Part shown: positions 677 through 18,166 of the stretch, piece after piece
Layout of the letters: the number at the start of each line of letters is the position of its first letter
Position numbering within the stretch: position 1 is the stretch's first letter
Origin: a virus
Virus record (IMG/VR): IMGVR_UViG_3300021964_000684
Location: 1 to 20,989 of that record
DNA length: 20,989 nt
Reading direction: 5' to 3' (one strand)
The notes under the pieces: generated by a model
Seen by the model: only the letters and a program-made list of their open reading frames with translations
What the model was told of the DNA's origin: nothing
The model's database searches: none
Made by a program: the position numbers and the translations under genes

Positions 677-2169
677 TGGCTTGGTATAACAGAATCATTG
701 GTGGTGATACACCAAAACAGAAAAAACGAAAGGCTTATAGAAGAAGTTATACTGGGGCTAACACTGGAAGATTGTTTGCAGATTTTGTAACCACATCTAC
801 AAGTGCCGATGCTGAAATAAAAGATAACATACGAATCCTAAGAGATAGGGCAAGAGAGTTAGCTAGAAACGATAGCTACATTGCTAGATACCTCAATCTA
901 ATGGTATCTAATGTTATCGGCAAGCATGGCATAAGAGTTAGCTCCAAAGCTAGGAACGATGATGGTTCTTTAGACATTGGAGCTAACCTGCTCATTGAAA
1001 GAGCTTGGAAGGAATGGTCTCAGCTTGGCAATTGTACAACCAATGGCAGATTGTCATTCTTAGATTGTCAAAAAATATTCATAGAATCATTGGCAAGAGA
1101 TGGTGAGGTTTTAGTTAGAAAAATAAAAAACCCAAATTCTCCTTTTGGCTTTCAACTACAGTTTTTAGAATCAGATCATTTAGACGAAAACAAAAATGAT
1201 GTTTACAAACAAACTGGCAACAAAGTTAAAATGGGTGTTGAAGTAGATCAATATGATAAGCCAGTAGCTTTTCACCTGTACAAAGATCATCCATACAATA
1301 GAAATTATTTAAGCCAAAACCAACATATTAGAGTTCCTGCTGATGAGATCATTCATGCTTATATGCCACAAAGGGCAGAACAAACCAGAGGTGTTTCTTT
1401 AATTGCAACCGCTATGGCTAATGTCAAAATGCTTAACGGATATCTTGAGGCAGAAATTGTGGCAGCACGAGTCGGAGCTAGTAAAATGGGCTTCTTCACT
1501 TCACCAGATGGTGATGGCTATGTTGGTGATGGTGAATATGAAGATACATTCAATCCAACAATGAACGCTCAAGCAGGAGTCTTTGAGCAGCTTCCAGCAG
1601 GTATGGACTTTAAGGCTTTTGACCCTAATCATCCAACATCTGCTTTTGAGTCTTTTACAACAAGCGTATTAAGAAGCATTGCATCAGGATTAAACATTTC
1701 TTATCACTCACTATCTAACGATTTAACATCTGTAAATTATTCTTCTATCAGACAAGGTGCTTTAGAAGATAGAAGTATGTATCAGATATATCAGCAATTT
1801 GTAATTGAGCATTTTGTAAACCCAGTATTCCAATCATGGTTAGAAATGGCTATTTCTACAGGTTATATTAATTTACCAATGGGCAAGTTTGATAAATTTG
1901 CTAGATCAGTAAATTACATTCCAAGATCATTCGCATGGATTGATCCATTAAAAGAAATGCAAGCTAATGTTATTGGTTTACAAAATGGAACACTTACATA
2001 TTCAGACATTTCTGCATCTTATGGCAGAGATACTGAAGAATTGTTTGAGCAACATCAAAAAGAAATTGAGTTAGCGAAACAATATGATATTGAATTAGCT
2101 TATCAGCCATTTGGTCAGAAGTTACCAGTGGAAGCTAAGATACAAGGTGGCGAAGAAGAAGATGGCTAG
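676..2169 (+). CDS. Phage portal protein, lambda gpB family (497 aa)
   Basis: This forms the dodecameric ring at one head vertex through which DNA is packaged and leaves, and on which the neck assembles. The whole length fits the lambda portal family (Phage_portal_2): an N-terminal segment with ARNDSYIARYLNLMVSNVIG near residues 73-92, a central stretch with LARDGEVLVRK, the family-typical RAEQTRGVSLIATAM around residue 235, and the C-terminal LNISYHSLSNDLTSVNYSS followed by a helical region. The length of about 500 is normal. The start ATG overlaps the previous stop (TAATG), and the TAG stop overlaps the next gene's ATG in ATGGCTAG. A lambda-type portal paired with an HK97-fold capsid is a common arrangement. 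Confidence 0.93.
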   Translation: MAWYNRIIGGDTPKQKKRKAYRRSYTGANTGRLFADFVTTSTSADAEIKDNIRILRDRARELARNDSYIARYLNLMVSNVIGKHGIRVSSKARNDDGSLDIGANLLIERAWKEWSQLGNCTTNGRLSFLDCQKIFIESLARDGEVLVRKIKNPNSPFGFQLQFLESDHLDENKNDVYKQTGNKVKMGVEVDQYDKPVAFHLYKDHPYNRNYLSQNQHIRVPADEIIHAYMPQRAEQTRGVSLIATAMANVKMLNGYLEAEIVAARVGASKMGFFTSPDGDGYVGDGEYEDTFNPTMNAQAGVFEQLPAGMDFKAFDPNHPTSAFESFTTSVLRSIASGLNISYHSLSNDLTSVNYSSIRQGALEDRSMYQIYQQFVIEHFVNPVFQSWLEMAISTGYINLPMGKFDKFARSVNYIPRSFAWIDPLKEMQANVIGLQNGTLTYSDISASYGRDTEELFEQHQKEIELAKQYDIELAYQPFGQKLPVEAKIQGGEEEDG

Positions 2170-4480
2170 ACCAAATGCAGGCATGAAGTCAGAAGCTCAA
2201 AAAGGCTTAGACTGGCGTGAAGAATTTGGCAGAGGTGGAACTAGGGTTGGTGCTGTAAGAGCAAGACAAATAGTGGCTGGTGAAAATTTATCAGATGAAA
2301 CTATTAAAAGAATGTACAGCTTCTTCTCTAGACATGAGGTTGATAAACAAGCTGAAGGATTCAGTGCTGGCGAAGAAGGTTATCCTTCTAATGGAAGAAT
2401 TGCATGGGCTCTTTGGGGTGGTGATGCAGGCTATAGCTGGTCAAAAAGATTGGTGGAACAAATGAAAAAAGATGATGAAAGACAAACAGTTTTTGATTCA
2501 AATGAATCAGAAATACATCCAGTAGAAAATACTGAGGAGAAAACTATGCAAAAAGAAGATAGACATATCCTCAGCGTTTCTGAAACTGATAACTCTGTTA
2601 TCGTTGAGTTTGAGAAACATGAGGATGTAGAAGAAGGTGAAGAAGTAGAAATGGCTGAGGAAGTTTCTATGATGGATCAAGATGAGGAAGAAAGAAAAGT
2701 ATTACATATGCCTATGAAATATAGGACTGTTGATCTTTCCAGAGCTTCTCATATTGATGAAGAAAATCGTAGAGTCAGAGTTGGCGTTTCTTCTGAAGAA
2801 CCTGTTGAAAGAAGTTTTGGCATGGAAGTGCTAGGACATTCTGAAGGTGATATAAACATGGAGTTTATTTCGTCTGGGCGAGCACCACTGCTCCTTGATC
2901 ATGATATGACCAAGCAAATAGGTGTAATTGAAGAATTCAAACTGGATGAGACTGCAAAAAGGACAATTGCAGTAGTTAGATTTGGTAAATCTGCTTTAGC
3001 TCGTGAAGTGTTTGAAGATGTCAAAGATGGTATTCGCATGAATATCTCTGTAGGCTACAGAATAGATAAACTGGAGCGTATACAACGTGATGGCGAGGAT
3101 TATTACAAAGCAAATTGGACTCCAATGGAAGTTTCTTCTGTTAGCGTTCCTGCTGATCAATCCAGACTTGTAGGCGTTGGGCGTTCTAAAAATAAACAAA
3201 CTAAAACTCAAATAGAGGTAATTAAAATGACTGAAGAAGTTAAAAATGAGATTAACCTTGATGAAGTTAGAGCTCAAAGTGCTGACGAAGCAAAAGCTGA
3301 ACTCAGAAGAGAATCAAAAGAGATGATTGATCTTGGTGTAAAGCACAATAGAAGAGACCTAGCTGACAAGGCTATTCAAGACGGCAAATCTGTTGAAGAG
3401 TTCAGAGGAATATTATTGGAAAACATTTCTAATAACACTCCACTTGAAACTCCTTCAGAAATCGGAATGACACCAAAAGAAGTTAGAAGATTTAGTTTAG
3501 TAAAAGCTATCAACGCTCTTGCTAATCCTTCTGACAGAAATGCACAGCGAGCTGCTGAATTCGAATTCGAATGTTCAGAGCAAGCTGCTAGAGAACATGG
3601 CAAAGTAGCACAAGGAATTATGCTTCCTGCTGACGTTCTTCGTAACTGGACTAGAGACCTGAACACAAGTGATGACTCTACTCTTATCGCTGAAGATTAC
3701 AAAGGCGGAGATTTCATAGACGTTCTAAGAAACTCATCTTCTGTAATGCAAGCTGGTGCGACAATGCTAAGAGGATTGCAGGGTAACGTAGTTATTCCTA
3801 AGAAAACTGCTGCTGCTTCTGCTGGCTGGATTGCTACTGAAGGTGGAGACTCTGCTGAGTCTGAATTCACCTCAGGATCAGTAACCATGTCTCCTAAAGT
3901 TATCGGTGCTCACACTGATGCTTCAAGATTAATGCTTCAACAATCTTCATTAGATGTTGAAAATTTAATCAGAGATGACCTTACACAATCTATTGCTTTG
4001 GCAATTGATTTAGGTGCTTTAGCTGGTTCAGGTACAAGTGGTCAACCAACTGGTATTGCTAATACTTCTGGTATCAATACAACAACATTTGTTGCTGCAA
4101 ATCCAACTTTTGCTGAGATTGTAGCTATGGAAAGTGCTGTTGCTGCTGATAATGCATTGTCTGGTTCATTGTCTTACATTTGTAAGCCAGCAGACTATGG
4201 AACATTGAAAACAACTAGCAAGGACACAGGTTCTGGTATGTTCGTTGTTGAGCCTGATGGAAGAATGAATGGCTACAATGTTGTTAGAAGTAATCAAGTA
4301 ACTTCAGGTGATTTCTACTTTGGAAACTTTGCTGACTTATTGATCGGATTCTATGGTGGGCTGGATATTTCAGTTGATCCTTATTCTCTGTCTAAATCAG
4401 GAAGTGTACGTGTGATAGCTCTTCAGTCAATTGACTGCCAAGTTCGTCATGCTGTTAGTTTCTGTAAGTCATCTGACTAA
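2162..4480 (+). CDS. Fusion: N-terminal phage domain + S78 prohead protease + HK97-fold major capsid protein (772 aa)
   Basis: I chose ATG 2162 (MARPNAGMK) over the upstream in-frame TTG at 2111 because it gives an 8-base overlap with the portal gene. Residues 1-105 are a domain met in other phage head modules (GLDWREEFGRGGT, GYPSNGRIAWALWGGDAG) whose role I do not know. Residues 106-185 are acidic linker. Residues 185-345 match the Caudovirales prohead protease family S78, with likely catalytic His247 (LLLDHD) and Ser296 (MNISVGYRI). Residues 356-772 are an HK97 gp5-type capsid: a charged helical delta-like part up to about 470, then the core with NVVIPKKTAAASAGWIATEG, GSGTSGQPTGIAN and a C-terminal VRVIALQSIDCQVRHAVSF. 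The protease would remove the delta region during head maturation. Protease-capsid fusions are known in phages. SD-preceded ATGs at 2546 and 3227 could release separate proteins. Confidence 0.9.
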   Translation: MARPNAGMKSEAQKGLDWREEFGRGGTRVGAVRARQIVAGENLSDETIKRMYSFFSRHEVDKQAEGFSAGEEGYPSNGRIAWALWGGDAGYSWSKRLVEQMKKDDERQTVFDSNESEIHPVENTEEKTMQKEDRHILSVSETDNSVIVEFEKHEDVEEGEEVEMAEEVSMMDQDEEERKVLHMPMKYRTVDLSRASHIDEENRRVRVGVSSEEPVERSFGMEVLGHSEGDINMEFISSGRAPLLLDHDMTKQIGVIEEFKLDETAKRTIAVVRFGKSALAREVFEDVKDGIRMNISVGYRIDKLERIQRDGEDYYKANWTPMEVSSVSVPADQSRLVGVGRSKNKQTKTQIEVIKMTEEVKNEINLDEVRAQSADEAKAELRRESKEMIDLGVKHNRRDLADKAIQDGKSVEEFRGILLENISNNTPLETPSEIGMTPKEVRRFSLVKAINALANPSDRNAQRAAEFEFECSEQAAREHGKVAQGIMLPADVLRNWTRDLNTSDDSTLIAEDYKGGDFIDVLRNSSSVMQAGATMLRGLQGNVVIPKKTAAASAGWIATEGGDSAESEFTSGSVTMSPKVIGAHTDASRLMLQQSSLDVENLIRDDLTQSIALAIDLGALAGSGTSGQPTGIANTSGINTTTFVAANPTFAEIVAMESAVAADNALSGSLSYICKPADYGTLKTTSKDTGSGMFVVEPDGRMNGYNVVRSNQVTSGDFYFGNFADLLIGFYGGLDISVDPYSLSKSGSVRVIALQSIDCQVRHAVSFCKSSD
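2533..2548 (+). promoter_or_regulatory. Candidate internal ribosome binding site and start before the protease domain
   Basis: TGAGGAGA (2533-2540) lies 6 bases before an in-frame ATG at 2546, codon 129 of the fusion, exactly between the N-terminal domain and the protease part. The match to the anti-SD is strong. The caution is that Glu-Glu codons (GAG GAG/GAA) create such purine runs by chance; another one precedes the in-frame ATG at 2669. Confidence 0.5.
3214..3229 (+). promoter_or_regulatory. Candidate internal ribosome binding site and start before the capsid domain
   Basis: AGAGG (3214-3218) lies 8 bases before an in-frame ATG at 3227, codon 356, just after the last protease-domain residues (RLVGVGRSK) and before the delta-like region. 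Initiation here would give a 417-residue capsid precursor, close to the 385 of HK97 gp5. The surrounding peptide is not Glu-rich, so the SD match is less likely to be a by-product of coding than the one at 2533. Confidence 0.55.
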
Positions 4481-4502
4481 TTAGCTGATGCTTAAATGGA
4501 AT

Positions 4503-4520
4503 GGTGGGGGCAACCCCACC
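4503..4520 (+). terminator. Strong GC hairpin with GCAA tetraloop just after the capsid gene
   Basis: GGTGGGG (4503-4509), loop GCAA (4510-4513) and CCCCACC (4514-4520) form a perfect 7-bp stem with a GNRA-type loop, starting 22 bases after the capsid stop. It is the most GC-rich short segment in this AT-rich region. The bases after it (ACCTTAATTA) are not a proper U-tract, so it may be a partial terminator, an mRNA 3'-end stabiliser for the capsid message, or a control element for the ATG at 4530. The structure is seen; the function is inferred. Confidence 0.5.
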
Positions 4521-4529
4521 ACCTTAATT

Positions 4530-4748: not shown

Positions 4749-5153
4749 ATGCCCATCGAGAGTGCAGCAGATTTTAACTCCTATGTAGACATCAACACAG
4801 GTCATGGAGTTACTGCTACATTCTTCGAGGTGCAACAATCATTATGGGATCAAAGAGTTGGTCTCATTGACACTTGGTTCGATATTGATTCTGGAAATAC
4901 AACCAATATCAACATCATCATAGATCAAGAATATTTCAACATAGAAGGTGGCACAGTTCCTGTTGCTGGTTATCAACCTAGAGCAATTATCAAAGCAACA
5001 GATGCTCCTTATATATCGCAAGAAGATAGGTTAATTGTTAATGCAATTACAACCAATCGTGGCAGTGTTTTAAAACCTGAAACTGCCTTTACTGTTAGAA
5101 AAGTCGAGCCTGATAACACAGGTTTAGTATCAGTGGTATTAGAGGAAGAATAA
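4749..5153 (+). CDS. Head-tail joining protein, gpFII-like, copy 1 (134 aa)
   Basis: This is a likely neck protein that binds below the portal and forms the surface to which the finished tail attaches. The N-terminus DFNSYVDINTGHGVTATFF and C-terminus ending VEPDNTGLVSVVLEE match the layout of small beta-barrel joining proteins located between capsid and tail terminator in many proteobacterial phages, the place of lambda FII. No clear SD is visible; the start is only 3 bases from the previous stop, so coupling is likely. It is a paralogue of the next gene: both share Y-x-DI, GHGV, an I-I-x-x-x-EY strand, a P-x-IS-x-x-x-x-L strand and an LEE end. The naming rests on position and fold pattern. 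Confidence 0.68.
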   Translation: MPIESAADFNSYVDINTGHGVTATFFEVQQSLWDQRVGLIDTWFDIDSGNTTNINIIIDQEYFNIEGGTVPVAGYQPRAIIKATDAPYISQEDRLIVNAITTNRGSVLKPETAFTVRKVEPDNTGLVSVVLEEE

Positions 5154-5503
5154 TGTCTCAATATCGCATGGAAACAGAAGAAGATATGATTGCATATTTA
5201 GATATAGACTATGGTCATGGTGTATCTGCTGTTTATACAAACAATGGTACTGACCTAACAATAAAAATAATTCTTAATAATGAATATGTTGAACAAGAAG
5301 AAGGTATAGGCGTGGAAGCACTAAAGCCGATAGCTTATTGCAGAACAATAGATGTTCCAAATATATCTTTTGGAAATACACTAGCTGTTGCAGCCATTAA
5401 AGATGTTGATGGCAATACATTAAAAGCAGCTCAAAATTATACAGTTGTGAATATACAAGCAGATAGAACTGGTTTCTCTGCTTTGATGCTTGAGGAAATA
5501 TAA
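5153..5503 (+). CDS. Head-tail joining protein-like, copy 2 (116 aa)
   Basis: This is a second, shorter relative of the preceding gene, arising from an old tandem duplication. It shares the N-terminal DMIAYLDIDYGHGVSAVY block, the middle strand with EYVEQEEG, VPNISFGNTLAV, and the C-terminal NYTVVNIQADRTGFSALMLEE. It lacks the insert after the first block (DQRVGLIDTWFDIDS in copy 1). The start is TAATG with an AGAGGAAG run upstream, so it is translated in step with copy 1. It could form a second neck ring or a mixed ring with copy 1; the sequence does not decide this. Confidence 0.62.
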   Translation: MSQYRMETEEDMIAYLDIDYGHGVSAVYTNNGTDLTIKIILNNEYVEQEEGIGVEALKPIAYCRTIDVPNISFGNTLAVAAIKDVDGNTLKAAQNYTVVNIQADRTGFSALMLEEI

Positions 5504-5949
5504 TGGCAAATCATATTAGACAACAAATCAGAGAAAAATTTGGCACAACTCTAACAGGATTAACAACTACTGGTTCTAATGTTTTTGAATCCAGAGTTTA
5601 TCCATTAGAAAATGCTTCTTTGCCAGCATTAATCATTTACACAAAATCAGAAACATCTGAGCCTATTGTTATAGGAACACAAAGACTTATGAGCAGAGAA
5701 TTGTCAGTAGTTGTGGAAGGTTATGCAAAAGCTACTAGCAACTTTGACGATACTATTGATACAATAAGCAAAGAGGTTGAAGCAGCAATAGCTGCTGACA
5801 GAACTCTTGATGGATTAGCTAAAGATACTTATTTAGAATCCACAGAGATAGAGTTTAACGCTGAGGGAGAAAAGCCATTGGGCTATGTCTCACTTACATT
5901 TTTAACTAACTATTATGTCAAGGAAAATGCTCCTGACGTAGCAGTTTAA
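5503..5949 (+). CDS. Tail terminator / tail completion protein, gpU/gpZ position (148 aa)
   Basis: This protein probably caps the head-proximal end of the tail tube and sets the moment tube growth stops. Visible features are an N-terminal helix (ANHIRQQIREKFGTTLTGL), the strand pair TTTGSNVFESRVYPLE and LPALIIYTKSE, a helix with FDDTIDTISKEVEAAI, and a final strand set YLESTEIEFNAEGEKPLGYV. That alpha/beta order is typical of tail terminators, and the position between joining proteins and tube agrees. The start is again TAATG, with GAGGAAATA upstream. Whether it is closer to gpU or gpZ in function is inference. Confidence 0.68.
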   Translation: MANHIRQQIREKFGTTLTGLTTTGSNVFESRVYPLENASLPALIIYTKSETSEPIVIGTQRLMSRELSVVVEGYAKATSNFDDTIDTISKEVEAAIAADRTLDGLAKDTYLESTEIEFNAEGEKPLGYVSLTFLTNYYVKENAPDVAV

Positions 5950-13372: not shown

Positions 13373-16300
13373 ATGGCACAGCACGATTACTACTTAGAAA
13401 ATGCTAGCGGAGCTGACTTCAGAGCTGATTTAAACAATGCTCTAGCAGCTATAGCTACAGTAAACTCAGGGGCTACCGAGCCTTCAACTACCTTTGCCCA
13501 TCAATTATGGGTAGATACAGCAAACAGTGTTTTAAAAATCAGAAATGCTGCTGACACAGATTGGATCACATTTGGCGTAAGCATTAGCTCATCCAATGTA
13601 TTTACAGGCAATTTAACAGGTGATGTAACAGGTAATGTAACTGGCAATGTTACAGGTAATGTTACTGGAGACCTAACAGGTAATGCTGATACAGCCACCA
13701 TATTAGAAACAGCAAGAACCATATCTCTATCAGGAGATGTTGTTGGTTCAGTATCTTTTGATGGTAGTGCTAATGTTGACATAGATACAGTTGTTCAAAT
13801 TAATTCTATTACTCTTGGAACTGATACCACTGGTGATTATGTAGAAAGCATATCTGGTGGCACAGGCGTAACTATTACAGGTGGCACAGGCGAAAGCTCT
13901 ACACCAGTGGTTGCTATTGGTCAGGCTGTTGCTATAACTAGCAATGTTACATTTAACACTGTTACAGCGACTGATGAGTTTATTGGTGATATTGATGGTG
14001 CTGTTAGATTCAGTGCAAAAGCTGGTGAAGCATTAACAAAAGGTGATTTGGTTTATGTTTCAGGTGTTTCAGGTGATGTTCCAGTGGTATCTAAAGCTAA
14101 AGCTGATGATGTTTCTAAAATGCCTGTATTTGGTTTAGCTGTAACAGATGCTAATAATAATGCAGGATTACAAGTTGCAACATTTGGTACGTTAGATGGA
14201 TTAGATACCTCAGGTGTATCAGAAGGACAAATTTTATATGCTTCAACAACAGCAGGTGCTTATACAACAACAAAACCAACAGGCGAATCAAGTCAAATAC
14301 AAAACATAGGTAAAGTTATAAGAAGTCATGCTGCTGCTGGTTCAATTAAAGTAGGTGGTGCTGGTAGAAGCAATGATGTTCCAAACTTAAATAATGGCAA
14401 CATATTTATAGGTAATGCTTCTAATCAAGCATCAACATCAACATTAGATACTTCTATTGTTCCAGAGAATACTAATCTCTATTGGACTACAGCTAGGGGC
14501 GAATCTATGTTTGATACTAGATTGGCTACCAAAGACACTGGTGATTTGGCAGAAGGCTCAAACCTTTACTACACAACTGCAAGGGTTAATTCTGATTTTG
14601 ATACTAGGCTTGCAATAAAAGATACAGGTGATTTGGCTGAGGGCGTTAATCTTTATTACACAGATGCAAGAGCTAATTCTGCATTTGATACTAGATTAGC
14701 TACAAAAGATACTGATGATGTAAGCGAAGGATCAGTCAATCTTTATTACACATCATCTAGGGCTAATTCTGATTTTGATACAAGACTTGCAACAAAAGAT
14801 ACTGGCGATTTAACAGAAGGAGTTAACCTTTACTATACAGATGCAAGATTTGATACAAGGCTTGCAACCAAAGATACAGACGATTTAACAGAAGGCACTA
14901 ATCTTTACTATACTCAAGCAAGATTTGATACTGCTTTTTCTAACAAAACAACCTCTGACTTAACAGAAGGTACTAATTTATATTACACAGATGCAAGGGC
15001 TAACTCTGCTATTGATACTAGAGTTACTAAATCATTTGTTGATGCCCTTAATATTCAAGCTGCAAGCGTAGATGCAAACAGCGTTGCTTTAGGCACAGAT
15101 ACTACAGGCAATTACATTCAAACAATTACAGGAACTGCTAACAAGATTACAGTTACAGGCTCAGGCAGTGAATCTGCTGATGTAACTTTAACTTTGCCAG
15201 ATGATGTGCAAATAGCAGATAGCTTAACAGTTGCAGGAAATTTAACTGTTAATGGCACACTAACATCATTAGATACAACAAACTTAGACATAGAAGATAA
15301 CCTGTTCCAGCTTAATGCAGGATTAACAGGCAGCCCAGTCAATGATTCTGGTATGTTGATTAATAGAGGTGATCAAGATAATGGCATCTTTATGTGGGAT
15401 GAGTCAGCAGACAAATTTACATTAGGTCTTACTACAGCAGATGGTACTGCTACAGGAAATATCACGCTTAATTCTCTTGGAACTTTGGTTGCTAACATTG
15501 AAGGAAATATCACTGGTAATGTTACTGGTCAAGTTTCAGATATAAGCAATCATTCAACATCAGACTTAACTGAAGGCTCAAACCTCTATTACACAGATGC
15601 TAGAGCAAACTCAGCGTTTGATACTAGATTAGCAACTAAAGATACTGGAGACTTAACTGAAGGCTCTAATCTTTATTACACAGATGCTAGAGCTGATGCC
15701 AGAGTTAATTTACAAACTGGTGCAAATTTAGATTTAAGCTCTAAATCAACATCAGACCTTGCAGAAGGCACTAACGAATATTTCACAACAGCTAGAGCAA
15801 GAAGCTCTATTTCTGCTTCTGGTGATATAAGCTATAACAGCTCAACAGGTGTTATTAGCTTCACAGCAGCAGCAGCACCAGTAACTAGTGTTAATACATT
15901 CACTGGAGCTGTAGTATTAGATAGTGATGATATTTCAGAAGGCTCAACCAATTTATATTACACAAGTGCAAGATTTGATTCAGACTTCTCTGGTAAATCA
16001 ACCAGCGATCTTTCTGAGGGCACTAATCTTTATTACACTGATGCCAGAGCAGATGCTAGGGTTAATTTACAAACTGGAGCTAATTTAGACTTAAGCTCTA
16101 AATCTACCAGCGATTTATCAGAAGGAACTAATCTTTATTACACAGATGCTAGAGCAAGAGCTGCTGTTAGCGTATCAGGCGATTTAGCTTATGATTCTGG
16201 AACTGGTGTATTCTCTTTCACAGAAAGAACTGATGCAGAAGTACAAGCATTAATAACTGCTGGTACTGGCGTTACTGTAAGTGGTGGTCAGGTATCTATA

Positions 16301-18166
16301 GGACAAGCTGTAGCAACTTCTGATTCTCCAACATTTGCCAACATGACTTTAAGTGGCACAGGTTCAATTAAAGTTCCAAGTGGTACTACAGCACAAAGAG
16401 ATGCTACACCTGCAAATGGTATGTTTAGATATAATTCTGAAGATGCTCAGTTTGAAGGTTATGCTGATGGTGCTTGGGGTGCTATTGCAGGTTCAGGTGG
16501 TGGTGCTTCAGCGATGGAGACCAACAACTTTACAGGCGATGGCTCTACCACTGCATTTACATTAAGTTCAAGCGTTTCTGATGAAGATAATTTATTAGCT
16601 TTTATAGAAGGTGTTTACCAAAACAAAGCTGATTTTGTTGCTTCAGGAACTACCATAACTTTTGATACAGCTCCTGCTAATGGCAGAAACATTGTTGTAC
16701 ATCATGTTAAAGCATCTATCAGTGGCAGCAACGTCATACTTAATTCATTTACAGGTAATGCATCAGACACAGACTTTACATTATCAGTTGCACCTCAGTC
16801 AGAAAATAATACTCAGGTACACTTAGATGGTGTTTACCAAAACAAATCAACTTACTCAGTTTCTGGCACAACTTTAACTTTTGATGCAGCCCCTGCTAAT
16901 GGTGTTGAGATTGAAGTTATTATGTTTACTCAGACCACTATTAATGAGCCAGCAGCAAATACTGTTGGGATTACTCAGCTTGATGTATCTGATGGCACAA
17001 ACGGACAGGTCTTAACAACCGATGGTGCTGGTACTTTATCTTTTGCTGATGGTGGTGTAGCTGGAATAGTATCAAGTGCAGACGCTACCGCAATCACCAT
17101 TGACAGTTCAGAAAATGTTGGAATTGGTTCGACTAGTCCTACTGTAGCATTGGAAGTTCATAAAAACGATTCAAGCTCTCCTGTACTTGAACTTAAAAAT
17201 ACTAATGCAGCAGGTTATAGCGGATTACATTTAAGGAGTTATTCAGATATTCTCGTAGGTCATCTTGGATATGCTAATGCTTCTGTGGGTGGCTCACTTG
17301 CAGACGAGGTTTTTTTCGGAAGCATATCAGCTACACCAGTTGTATTTACAACTTCTGATGCAGAACGCATGAGGATTGATACTTCTGGAAACTTGTTGGT
17401 TTCTACTACTTCTTCAAACTTTGCAGCAGCAGGTTCTCAACTAGGAGTTGGTGGTAACAACTACATGACTAGGTCAGGTGCTAACCCCTTACTATTAAAT
17501 AGACTATCTTCAGATGGTGACATTTTATCGCTAGCAAAAGACGGCACAGTAGTTGGAACTATTGGTACGGGTTATGGTCAGTTATATATTGGTACAGGAG
17601 ATATAGCATTATATTTCGACTCGACTGATGAAACAATTGTACCTTATAATGCGTCAACTAACTCGCAAAGAGCCAATGCCATTAATTTAGGCAGGTCGGC
17701 TGCACCTTTCAAAGACCTCTACCTTTCAGGCGGTGCTTATCTAGGTGGTACAGGTTCAGCAAATCATCTTGACGATTATGAAGAAGGTACTTATACTCCG
17801 ACTTGGAGTTCTATTGCTGGTAATCCATCTAGTTACTACAATGCTGACAATACAAATACTGGATTATCTTATGTAAAAATAGGTAGACAAGTTACAATTT
17901 CAGGTTCTGCAATTTTTAATTCAGGTAGCTCAATAAATAATACGAGACCTTTTATGTCCTTACCTTTTGCTGCTAGAATTTATAGTGTCACAGGAGTTAT
18001 TGCCAGTTTTCAAACTAATAGTCAGTCAGCTGTAAATTATCTAAACTACTCATCAACAACTGCAATTAACTTATTTAAATTAAATAGTACAGGCAGTCAT
18101 GTCCCTTTTGGTGCAAATGCTGCTATAGAGCTTTATATTAATATTACATATCAAACATATGCCTAG
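13373..18166 (+). CDS. Giant repeat-rich tail fiber protein (1597 aa)
   Basis: An AGAGGT SD precedes ATG 13373. Order of parts: an N-terminal attachment segment (1-45, DYYLENASGADFRADLNNAL); an LW...W module (43-65); a GN-(V/L)-TG tract (77-104); a beta region; 13 copies of an EG-x-NLYYT-type unit in two clusters (363-554 and 731-951) separated by a domain with LTVAGNLTVNGTLTSLDTTN; two tandem 60-residue GVYQNK domains (1053-1185); a segment with VGIGSTSPTVALEV and ERMRIDTSGNLLVSTTS (about 1250-1350); NAINLGRSAAPFKDLYLSGG; the box LDDYEEGTYTPTW (about 1466); and a final 115-residue beta-rich tip (YVKIGRQVTISGSAIF), probably the receptor-binding end. I recognise these motifs from marine phage fibers. 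The last third has more CpG than the rest. Confidence 0.88.
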   Translation: MAQHDYYLENASGADFRADLNNALAAIATVNSGATEPSTTFAHQLWVDTANSVLKIRNAADTDWITFGVSISSSNVFTGNLTGDVTGNVTGNVTGNVTGDLTGNADTATILETARTISLSGDVVGSVSFDGSANVDIDTVVQINSITLGTDTTGDYVESISGGTGVTITGGTGESSTPVVAIGQAVAITSNVTFNTVTATDEFIGDIDGAVRFSAKAGEALTKGDLVYVSGVSGDVPVVSKAKADDVSKMPVFGLAVTDANNNAGLQVATFGTLDGLDTSGVSEGQILYASTTAGAYTTTKPTGESSQIQNIGKVIRSHAAAGSIKVGGAGRSNDVPNLNNGNIFIGNASNQASTSTLDTSIVPENTNLYWTTARGESMFDTRLATKDTGDLAEGSNLYYTTARVNSDFDTRLAIKDTGDLAEGVNLYYTDARANSAFDTRLATKDTDDVSEGSVNLYYTSSRANSDFDTRLATKDTGDLTEGVNLYYTDARFDTRLATKDTDDLTEGTNLYYTQARFDTAFSNKTTSDLTEGTNLYYTDARANSAIDTRVTKSFVDALNIQAASVDANSVALGTDTTGNYIQTITGTANKITVTGSGSESADVTLTLPDDVQIADSLTVAGNLTVNGTLTSLDTTNLDIEDNLFQLNAGLTGSPVNDSGMLINRGDQDNGIFMWDESADKFTLGLTTADGTATGNITLNSLGTLVANIEGNITGNVTGQVSDISNHSTSDLTEGSNLYYTDARANSAFDTRLATKDTGDLTEGSNLYYTDARADARVNLQTGANLDLSSKSTSDLAEGTNEYFTTARARSSISASGDISYNSSTGVISFTAAAAPVTSVNTFTGAVVLDSDDISEGSTNLYYTSARFDSDFSGKSTSDLSEGTNLYYTDARADARVNLQTGANLDLSSKSTSDLSEGTNLYYTDARARAAVSVSGDLAYDSGTGVFSFTERTDAEVQALITAGTGVTVSGGQVSIGQAVATSDSPTFANMTLSGTGSIKVPSGTTAQRDATPANGMFRYNSEDAQFEGYADGAWGAIAGSGGGASAMETNNFTGDGSTTAFTLSSSVSDEDNLLAFIEGVYQNKADFVASGTTITFDTAPANGRNIVVHHVKASISGSNVILNSFTGNASDTDFTLSVAPQSENNTQVHLDGVYQNKSTYSVSGTTLTFDAAPANGVEIEVIMFTQTTINEPAANTVGITQLDVSDGTNGQVLTTDGAGTLSFADGGVAGIVSSADATAITIDSSENVGIGSTSPTVALEVHKNDSSSPVLELKNTNAAGYSGLHLRSYSDILVGHLGYANASVGGSLADEVFFGSISATPVVFTTSDAERMRIDTSGNLLVSTTSSNFAAAGSQLGVGGNNYMTRSGANPLLLNRLSSDGDILSLAKDGTVVGTIGTGYGQLYIGTGDIALYFDSTDETIVPYNASTNSQRANAINLGRSAAPFKDLYLSGGAYLGGTGSANHLDDYEEGTYTPTWSSIAGNPSSYYNADNTNTGLSYVKIGRQVTISGSAIFNSGSSINNTRPFMSLPFAARIYSVTGVIASFQTNSQSAVNYLNYSSTTAINLFKLNSTGSHVPFGANAAIELYINITYQTYA
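13601..13684 (+). repeat. GN-(V/L)-TG tandem tract in the fiber gene
   Basis: Twenty-eight codons encode FTG followed by a run of four-residue units (NLTG, DVTG, NVTG three times, DLTG). The DNA units are 12 bases, of the type aca-ggt-aat-gta, with third-base changes only. Such a run probably folds as a narrow beta-helix or triple-beta shaft and can change copy number by slippage. Confidence 0.85.
14459..15034 (+). repeat. Fiber repeat cluster 1: seven EG-x-NLYYT units
   Basis: Seven units, typically about 29 residues and shorter where truncated, of the form D-(L/V)-x-EG-x-NLYYT-x-AR-(A/V)NS-x-FDTRLATKDT. The first is degenerate (PENTNLYWTTAR) and the fifth and sixth lack the ANSxF part. Third-base differences between units show that they are not recent copies. 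Confidence 0.9.
15563..16226 (+). repeat. Fiber repeat cluster 2: six EG-x-NLYYT units including a 72-residue supra-repeat
   Basis: Six further units. Codons 15650-15865 and 16007-16222 encode two 72-residue blocks that align without gaps, with 57 identical residues by my count (NLYYTDARADARVNLQTG, then LDLSSKSTSDL, ending TGV-x-SFT). The blocks are separated by one unit of a different type. Confidence 0.9.
16529..16708 (+). repeat. GVYQNK domain, copy 1
   Basis: Sixty codons from FTGDGSTTAFTL through EGVYQNKADF to IVVHHV. It aligns without gaps to 16748-16927, with 31 identical residues by hand count. It is probably a small beta domain on the fiber shaft. Confidence 0.85.
16748..16927 (+). 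repeat. GVYQNK domain, copy 2
   Basis: Sixty codons from FTGNASDTDFTL through DGVYQNKSTY to IEVIMF. The strongest conservation with copy 1 is GVYQNK and TT-(I/L)-TFD-x-APANG. The two copies are separated by 13 codons. Confidence 0.85.

Follow-up and report, generated by a model that had tools for sequence, protein, structure and literature searches.

The open reading frame (ORF) described here occupies positions 2162–4480 of the plus strand of IMG/VR record IMGVR_UViG_3300021964_000684. The 20,989-nt stretch analysed is called the window, and coordinates are window positions. The ORF is open throughout and encodes 772 aa, comprising an N-terminal module, an S78-type prohead protease, a scaffold domain and an HK97-fold capsid (Table 1). 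Two in-frame ATG codons, each preceded by a Shine-Dalgarno (SD) sequence, lie at its joints: joint 1 (J1) between the N-terminal module and the protease, and joint 2 (J2) between the protease and the scaffold-capsid part.

Table 1. Features of the protease-capsid fusion ORF in the window.
Feature	Position	Strand	Remarks
Full-length ORF start	2162–2169	+	overlaps stop of lambda-type portal gene (ATGGCTAG)
N-terminal module and linker 107–128	2162–2545	+	residues 1–106 of phrog_2859 type; exchangeable or absent in close relatives
J1 SD, GAGGAG	2534–2539	+	spacing 6 to ATG; anti-SD dG −9.2 kcal/mol
J1 ATG	2546–2548	+	proposed start of protease-scaffold-capsid, 644 aa, 70.6 kDa
S78-type prohead protease domain	2744–3184	+	about residues 195–341; TIGR01543, NF045541 and phrog_3244 matches
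Catalytic residues	His247, 2900–2902; Ser296, 3047–3049	+	invariant in alignments
J2 SD, AGAGGT	3214–3219	+	spacing 7 to ATG; anti-SD dG −7.1 kcal/mol
J2 ATG	3227–3229	+	proposed start of scaffold-capsid precursor, 417 aa, 44.5 kDa
Scaffold (delta-like) domain	3227–3673	+	about residues 356–504, mostly helical; absent from mature chain 8gta
Mature HK97-fold capsid	3674–4477	+	about residues 505–772, 27.8 kDa; PF05065, 8gta

The profile searches showed that phrog_617 covers residues 186–770 (E = 1.9e-145) and that a single open frame encodes both the protease and the HK97-fold capsid. The N-terminal module matched phrog_2859 at residues 4–106 (E = 2.8e-33). The TIGR01543 proheadase match spans residues 241–334, and the PF05065 capsid match spans residues 517–769. 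NF045541, the family of prohead protease/major capsid protein fusions, matched residues 198–467 only partially (137.7 bits, under its cutoff of 525 bits). PF04586 was found in the protease part of two relatives (L069 and L083). His247 and Ser296 were invariant in alignments of 10, 56 and 64 sequences. The ORF therefore carries the catalytic His/Ser pair of the S78-type protease-capsid fusion family, and the protease is a predicted one. The three-part composition and the two protease residues had been named in an earlier first-pass annotation of the sequence, and the profile and Foldseek results agree with it.

The nearest solved structure was the capsid of the marine phage R4C (PDB 8gta; phmmer E = 7.6e-47, Foldseek E = 6e-20). 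The top Foldseek matches were 8gta, the gene transfer agent and HK97, which places the capsid in the HK97 fold. The 268-residue chain of 8gta aligns to residues 507–764, so the mature capsid is taken as residues 505–772 or thereabouts and the scaffold as residues 356–504. The scaffold is probably cut off during maturation. The AlphaFold model of the ORF (56-sequence alignment, mean predicted local distance difference test (pLDDT) score 75.7) has helices at 366–479. Confidence is high within the domains and low at residues 108–129, 153–194, 342–366 and 498–516, which are in order J1, an acidic linker, J2 and the probable maturation site. By this model, the J1 and J2 ATGs presumably sit in disordered linkers (108–129 and 342–366) between folded domains. 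A model of the N-terminal module alone was poor (pLDDT 48) and was left unused.

The ORF contains 25 internal in-frame ATGs. J1 and J2 have the strongest anti-SD pairing among them, and the third best reaches −6.2 kcal/mol. The SD-ATG pairs reported at 2546 and 3227 by the first-pass annotation are thus present and stand out in the gene. The 417-aa length that it gave for the product from 3227 is also right, and this product can now be divided into the scaffold and the mature capsid.

A total of 429 loci were gathered from viral contigs, bacterial genomes and named phages. Protease and capsid share one frame in all of them, and no locus split at J2 was found among the 429. The SD survey used 418 loci in 88 clusters (70% identity), of which 83 were non-cyanophage-like. 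The J2 ATG was taken as the first ATG downstream of the VGxGR motif of the protease, and an SD was called strong at −4.5 kcal/mol or better. The joint ATG was present in 82/83 non-cyanophage-like clusters, and a strong SD preceded it in 76% of the 83. The corresponding rates were 14% at the remaining internal ATGs, 58% where the next gene starts and 64% at the first ATG in the fusion ORF. These results give comparative support to the proposal that an internal start at J2 yields free capsid precursor. At the cluster level, the difference in J2 SD strength was significant (Wilcoxon p = 3e-14, n = 82). The SD lies 6–11 nt upstream of the ATG, despite variation in the residues, length and codon register of the linker. 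The frequency of SD tetramers was highest 7–8 nt upstream (0.50–0.55 vs. a background of 0.02). The mRNA folding minimum falls exactly at the J2 ATG (−5.8 vs. −11 to −14 farther off), and folding there did not differ from that at true gene starts (p = 0.49). When positions 3214–3229 were aligned in homologues, as the first-pass annotation had suggested, the SD and ATG were kept in most clusters although the protein sequence of the linker was unconserved.

An SD-like sequence could also arise without initiation, from a charged Glu/Lys-rich linker or an interdomain translational pause. The residues at −4 and −3 are often Glu or Lys. A synonymous null, in which amino acids were fixed and codons were redrawn from the usage of each gene (500 draws), already yielded 39% strong SDs. 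The observed J2 mean was −5.73, however, against −3.82 ± 0.24 under this null, and was reached in 0/500 draws. The GG of the SD falls in all three codon registers (54/13/6), so a conserved peptide cannot explain the signal. The SD also occurs, at an unchanged distance, where the residues and register differ (IRG, QRS, LRS, QAG). In the cluster of the window itself, codon −4 was AAG in 22 and AAA in 2 sequences, or GAG in 18 and GAA in 0, and the G-ending share of Lys and Glu codons was only about 20%. Linker composition alone was rejected on the basis of the synonymous null and the codon registers. We consider it extremely unlikely that a charged linker or a pause accounts for J2, also in view of the cyanophage-like relatives.

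The cyanophage-like relatives (Synechococcus phages S-CBS1, S-CBS3 and S-LBS1 and about 130 others) served as a natural control. SDs are scarce at their starts, at the joint and at other genes alike (24%). The first-ATG rule often mispicks the joint in this set and suggested that the clade has no start there. This was rejected, as the joint was read from a realigned codon column, which gave ATG or GTG. Among 134 aligned sequences, the joint codon was ATG in 113 and GTG in 19, and the remaining 2 look misaligned, with an ATG nearby. All genuine Val codons at the joint are GTG, whereas GTG makes up 44% of the Val codons in these genes. A Met-or-Val position coded solely as ATG or GTG looks like a start codon. 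The folding minimum again falls exactly at the joint (−6.8 vs. about −11 to −18). This restriction to ATG/GTG and the folding minimum, in relatives poor in SDs, argue further against linker composition or pausing.

The signal at J2 is retained over long distances. The isolated phages CRP-811 (TAAGGAGAACACTATG), CRP-821 (CAAAGGAGTGATCCCATG), VP882 (AGAGGTGCAGAAATG) and R4C (TCGGAGGACGCAATG) keep J2 at 35–60% identity, and Helicobacter prophages keep the SD-ATG pair at about 24% identity (AAAGGAGGCGAGTATG). The first-pass annotation had asked whether relatives carry a stop codon at the joint; none of the 429 loci did, and the frame was open in all of them. The 84 unrelated linkers compared (median 20 aa) contained 0 in-frame stops, while 98/174 of their off-frame readings contained a stop. 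This indicates that the fusion itself has been retained. By sequence comparison, the fusion and the internal start are thus both retained. Two loci carry additional capsid-like ORFs. A Haematospirillum prophage (L160) has a second one directly downstream of the fused gene (4789–5878; 346.7 bits to the fusion profile). In a Paracoccus contig (L173), a separate ORF (1542–1974) matches the C-terminal capsid part and overlaps the start of the fused ORF.

The J1 evidence comes from the module-bearing, RHIL-type subset. The J1 SD was kept in 17/17 clusters in several sequence forms, and the folding minimum lies there. The codons of Glu125 and Glu126 are GAG in 100% and 84% of sequences, against a mean of 23% over Glu columns, and they rank first (tied) and fourth of 47. 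The first-pass annotation had suspected that the SD at 2546, in its Glu-rich context, was fortuitous; given its conservation in 17/17 clusters, this doubt was too cautious. At residue 154 (2621–2623), Glu is coded by GAG in 37/37 dereplicated relatives, with no obvious in-frame start behind it.

J1 also marks the boundary for the exchange of N-terminal modules. The protease-capsid parts remain 97–99.7% identical across swaps, and near-identical ones carry phrog_2859 alone, phrog_2859 with Hva1_TUDOR, phrog_2859 with DUF5824, or a WL-type module. Swap or absence of the module was seen among the window (2162–2545) and six relatives (L007, L008, L062, L069, L074 and L075). The N-terminal domain is absent in L055, L062 and L064, whose ORFs start at the stop codon of the portal gene. 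The N-terminal extension has a median of at least 120 aa in only 9/67 clusters, and most of the family lacks the module. In L084 (~3165–3205) and L060 (~3269), a single-base change relative to near-identical phages shifts the frame of the module, which is either real or a sequencing error.

With J2 real, J1 might still be unused, the context of ATG 2546 being merely inherited with the linker through module exchange. Close relatives have an almost unchanged J1 (GAGGAGAAA), partly through shared descent, and the cyanophage-like module-bearing examples inspected lack a clear J1 SD. The varied forms of J1 (GAGGTAAAA, GAGGAAAAA, AAAGGAACGAACAAG and ACAGGTGATAAT), however, all keep the SD in the 17/17 clusters, together with the folding minimum. 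The module of CRP-823 lies in another frame, so its protease-capsid part must start downstream, unless the one-base insertion is an error; such module frameshifts (L060 and CRP-823) were given little weight because they are single-base changes and possible sequencing errors. We regard an unused J1 as somewhat unlikely.

We propose that ORF 2162–4480 is a nested, 3′-coterminal gene set in one frame with three products, and we put the probability of this reading at roughly 85%. Ribosomes arriving from the portal gene would in part make the full-length module-protease-scaffold-capsid chain (85.0 kDa). Initiation at J1 would give protease-scaffold-capsid (70.6 kDa), and initiation at J2 would give scaffold-capsid (44.5 kDa), the expected bulk product. 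The three products would co-assemble, since scaffold and capsid are common to all of them. A minority of subunits would carry the protease covalently into the prohead, where it would cleave off itself and the scaffold, leaving a mature capsid of about 28 kDa. Comparison establishes the architecture and shows that initiation-like signals are conserved at both starts. From these we infer that the starts are used, that the products differ in amount, and that they co-assemble and are cleaved.

Only the full-length (or J1) protein may be made instead, with the protease of each subunit acting as a built-in scaffold and the J2 SD-ATG being a relic of a separate capsid gene. The fusion is kept at every locus, and the split state does exist: Cellulophaga phage phi39:1, a distant relative, encodes protease and capsid in two genes whose stop and start overlap at the J2 joint. 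A relic would be expected to decay, yet the SD, its spacing, the synonymous choice and the low structure persist in an otherwise unconserved linker, and the SD is retained down to about 24% identity. For this reason, a fission/fusion relic was rejected as the sole explanation. Space in the prohead also speaks against it. In a T=7 prohead built solely of full-length chains, the 57 kDa N-terminal parts (415 copies) would take up an estimated 70–110% of the cavity, compared with an estimated 20–31% for the scaffold alone. The first-pass annotation had offered as an alternative that every subunit carries protease and N-terminal domain as a scaffold. This is disfavoured by the 70–110% filling and by the absence of the N-terminal domain in some close relatives. 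We consider a full-length-only product with a relic J2 very unlikely.

Several points weigh against the nested-gene reading. SD sequences and low structure are evidence for initiation and not a measurement of it. In about a quarter of the main clusters, the SD of the first ATG downstream of the protease is weak; later ATG, GTG or TTG codons were not systematically searched there. The way in which loci were sampled favours fused genes. All J1 sequences belong to a single subset and have less independence than the J2 set, and codon constancy alone is no proof for J1, because the non-start Glu column 154 is also 100% GAG. The prohead estimate assumes T=7 and a cavity radius.

We also speculate, as an unlikely idea, that the N-terminal modules are interchangeable cargo, of which rare full-length chains bring a few copies into the prohead via the capsid domain. 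If so, the protease would free the modules, which would remain in the head or be delivered to the host together with the DNA, and J1 would allow the cargo to be swapped without touching the expression of protease or capsid.

Nested head genes are known from other viruses. In lambda C/Nu3, an in-frame internal start in the head-protease gene gives an abundant protease-free partner. The window likewise has a conserved in-frame start with an SD downstream of the predicted protease domain. The nested product of lambda is scaffold only and its capsid gene E is separate, whereas that of the window would hold scaffold and capsid. No lambda C-type match was found in the family scans of the window and its relatives; the protease matches HK97-type proheadase and Peptidase_S78. 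Herpesvirus UL26/UL26.5 gives two 3′-coterminal products, a protease-scaffold chain and an excess of scaffold. It uses separate transcripts and a separate capsid gene, unlike the window ORF. HK97 gp4/gp5 has an S78-type protease and a capsid whose N-terminal scaffold domain is removed on maturation, as proposed here. In HK97 the scaffold is a domain of the capsid protein (PMC10275583), but gp4 and gp5 are separate genes and the protease is packaged non-covalently.

Fused protease-capsid genes have been mentioned in the literature (PMC8601537, PMC12760985). They are widespread in proteobacterial and marine phages. The phrog_617/NF045541 family has the same protease-scaffold-capsid chain as the window ORF and is annotated as a single protein; no internal start was annotated in the records examined. 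The fused gene of Dinoroseobacter phage vB_DshS-R4C (PDB 8gta) has GGAGG-6-ATG at Met189 and a mature capsid of 268 aa. It has no N-terminal module, and the internal start is unannotated in its record. Searches of the open-access literature, with few subscription papers covered, gave no description of a conserved internal start for the capsid in fused genes. Fusion genes and nested head genes are thus already known, and such a start appears to be new. No account was found in the open-access literature of how fused-gene phages avoid proheads filled with protease. A conserved internal start would answer this stoichiometry problem, as a head needs hundreds of capsid subunits and few proteases. 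An open frame with an internal start would be a simple way to set the stoichiometry and to guarantee packaging of the protease. Fused genes would then be incompletely annotated, since the records examined do not list the probable capsid precursor, a gap that is relevant to proteomic and structural studies.

Other features were observed elsewhere in the window. A strong hairpin at 4497–4524 (core GGUGGGG-GCAA-CCCCACC) lies directly after the capsid stop and ahead of ATG 4530. The region folds at −19.7 kcal/mol (z −3.1), and the hairpin may make the capsid mRNA more stable or reduce readthrough. The adjacent genes 4749–5153 and 5153–5503 both match the head-tail attachment family PF05354/phrog_82. 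In the tail region, a 1597-aa ORF (13373–18166) had DUF4183 as its sole match, which was weak and below the cutoff.

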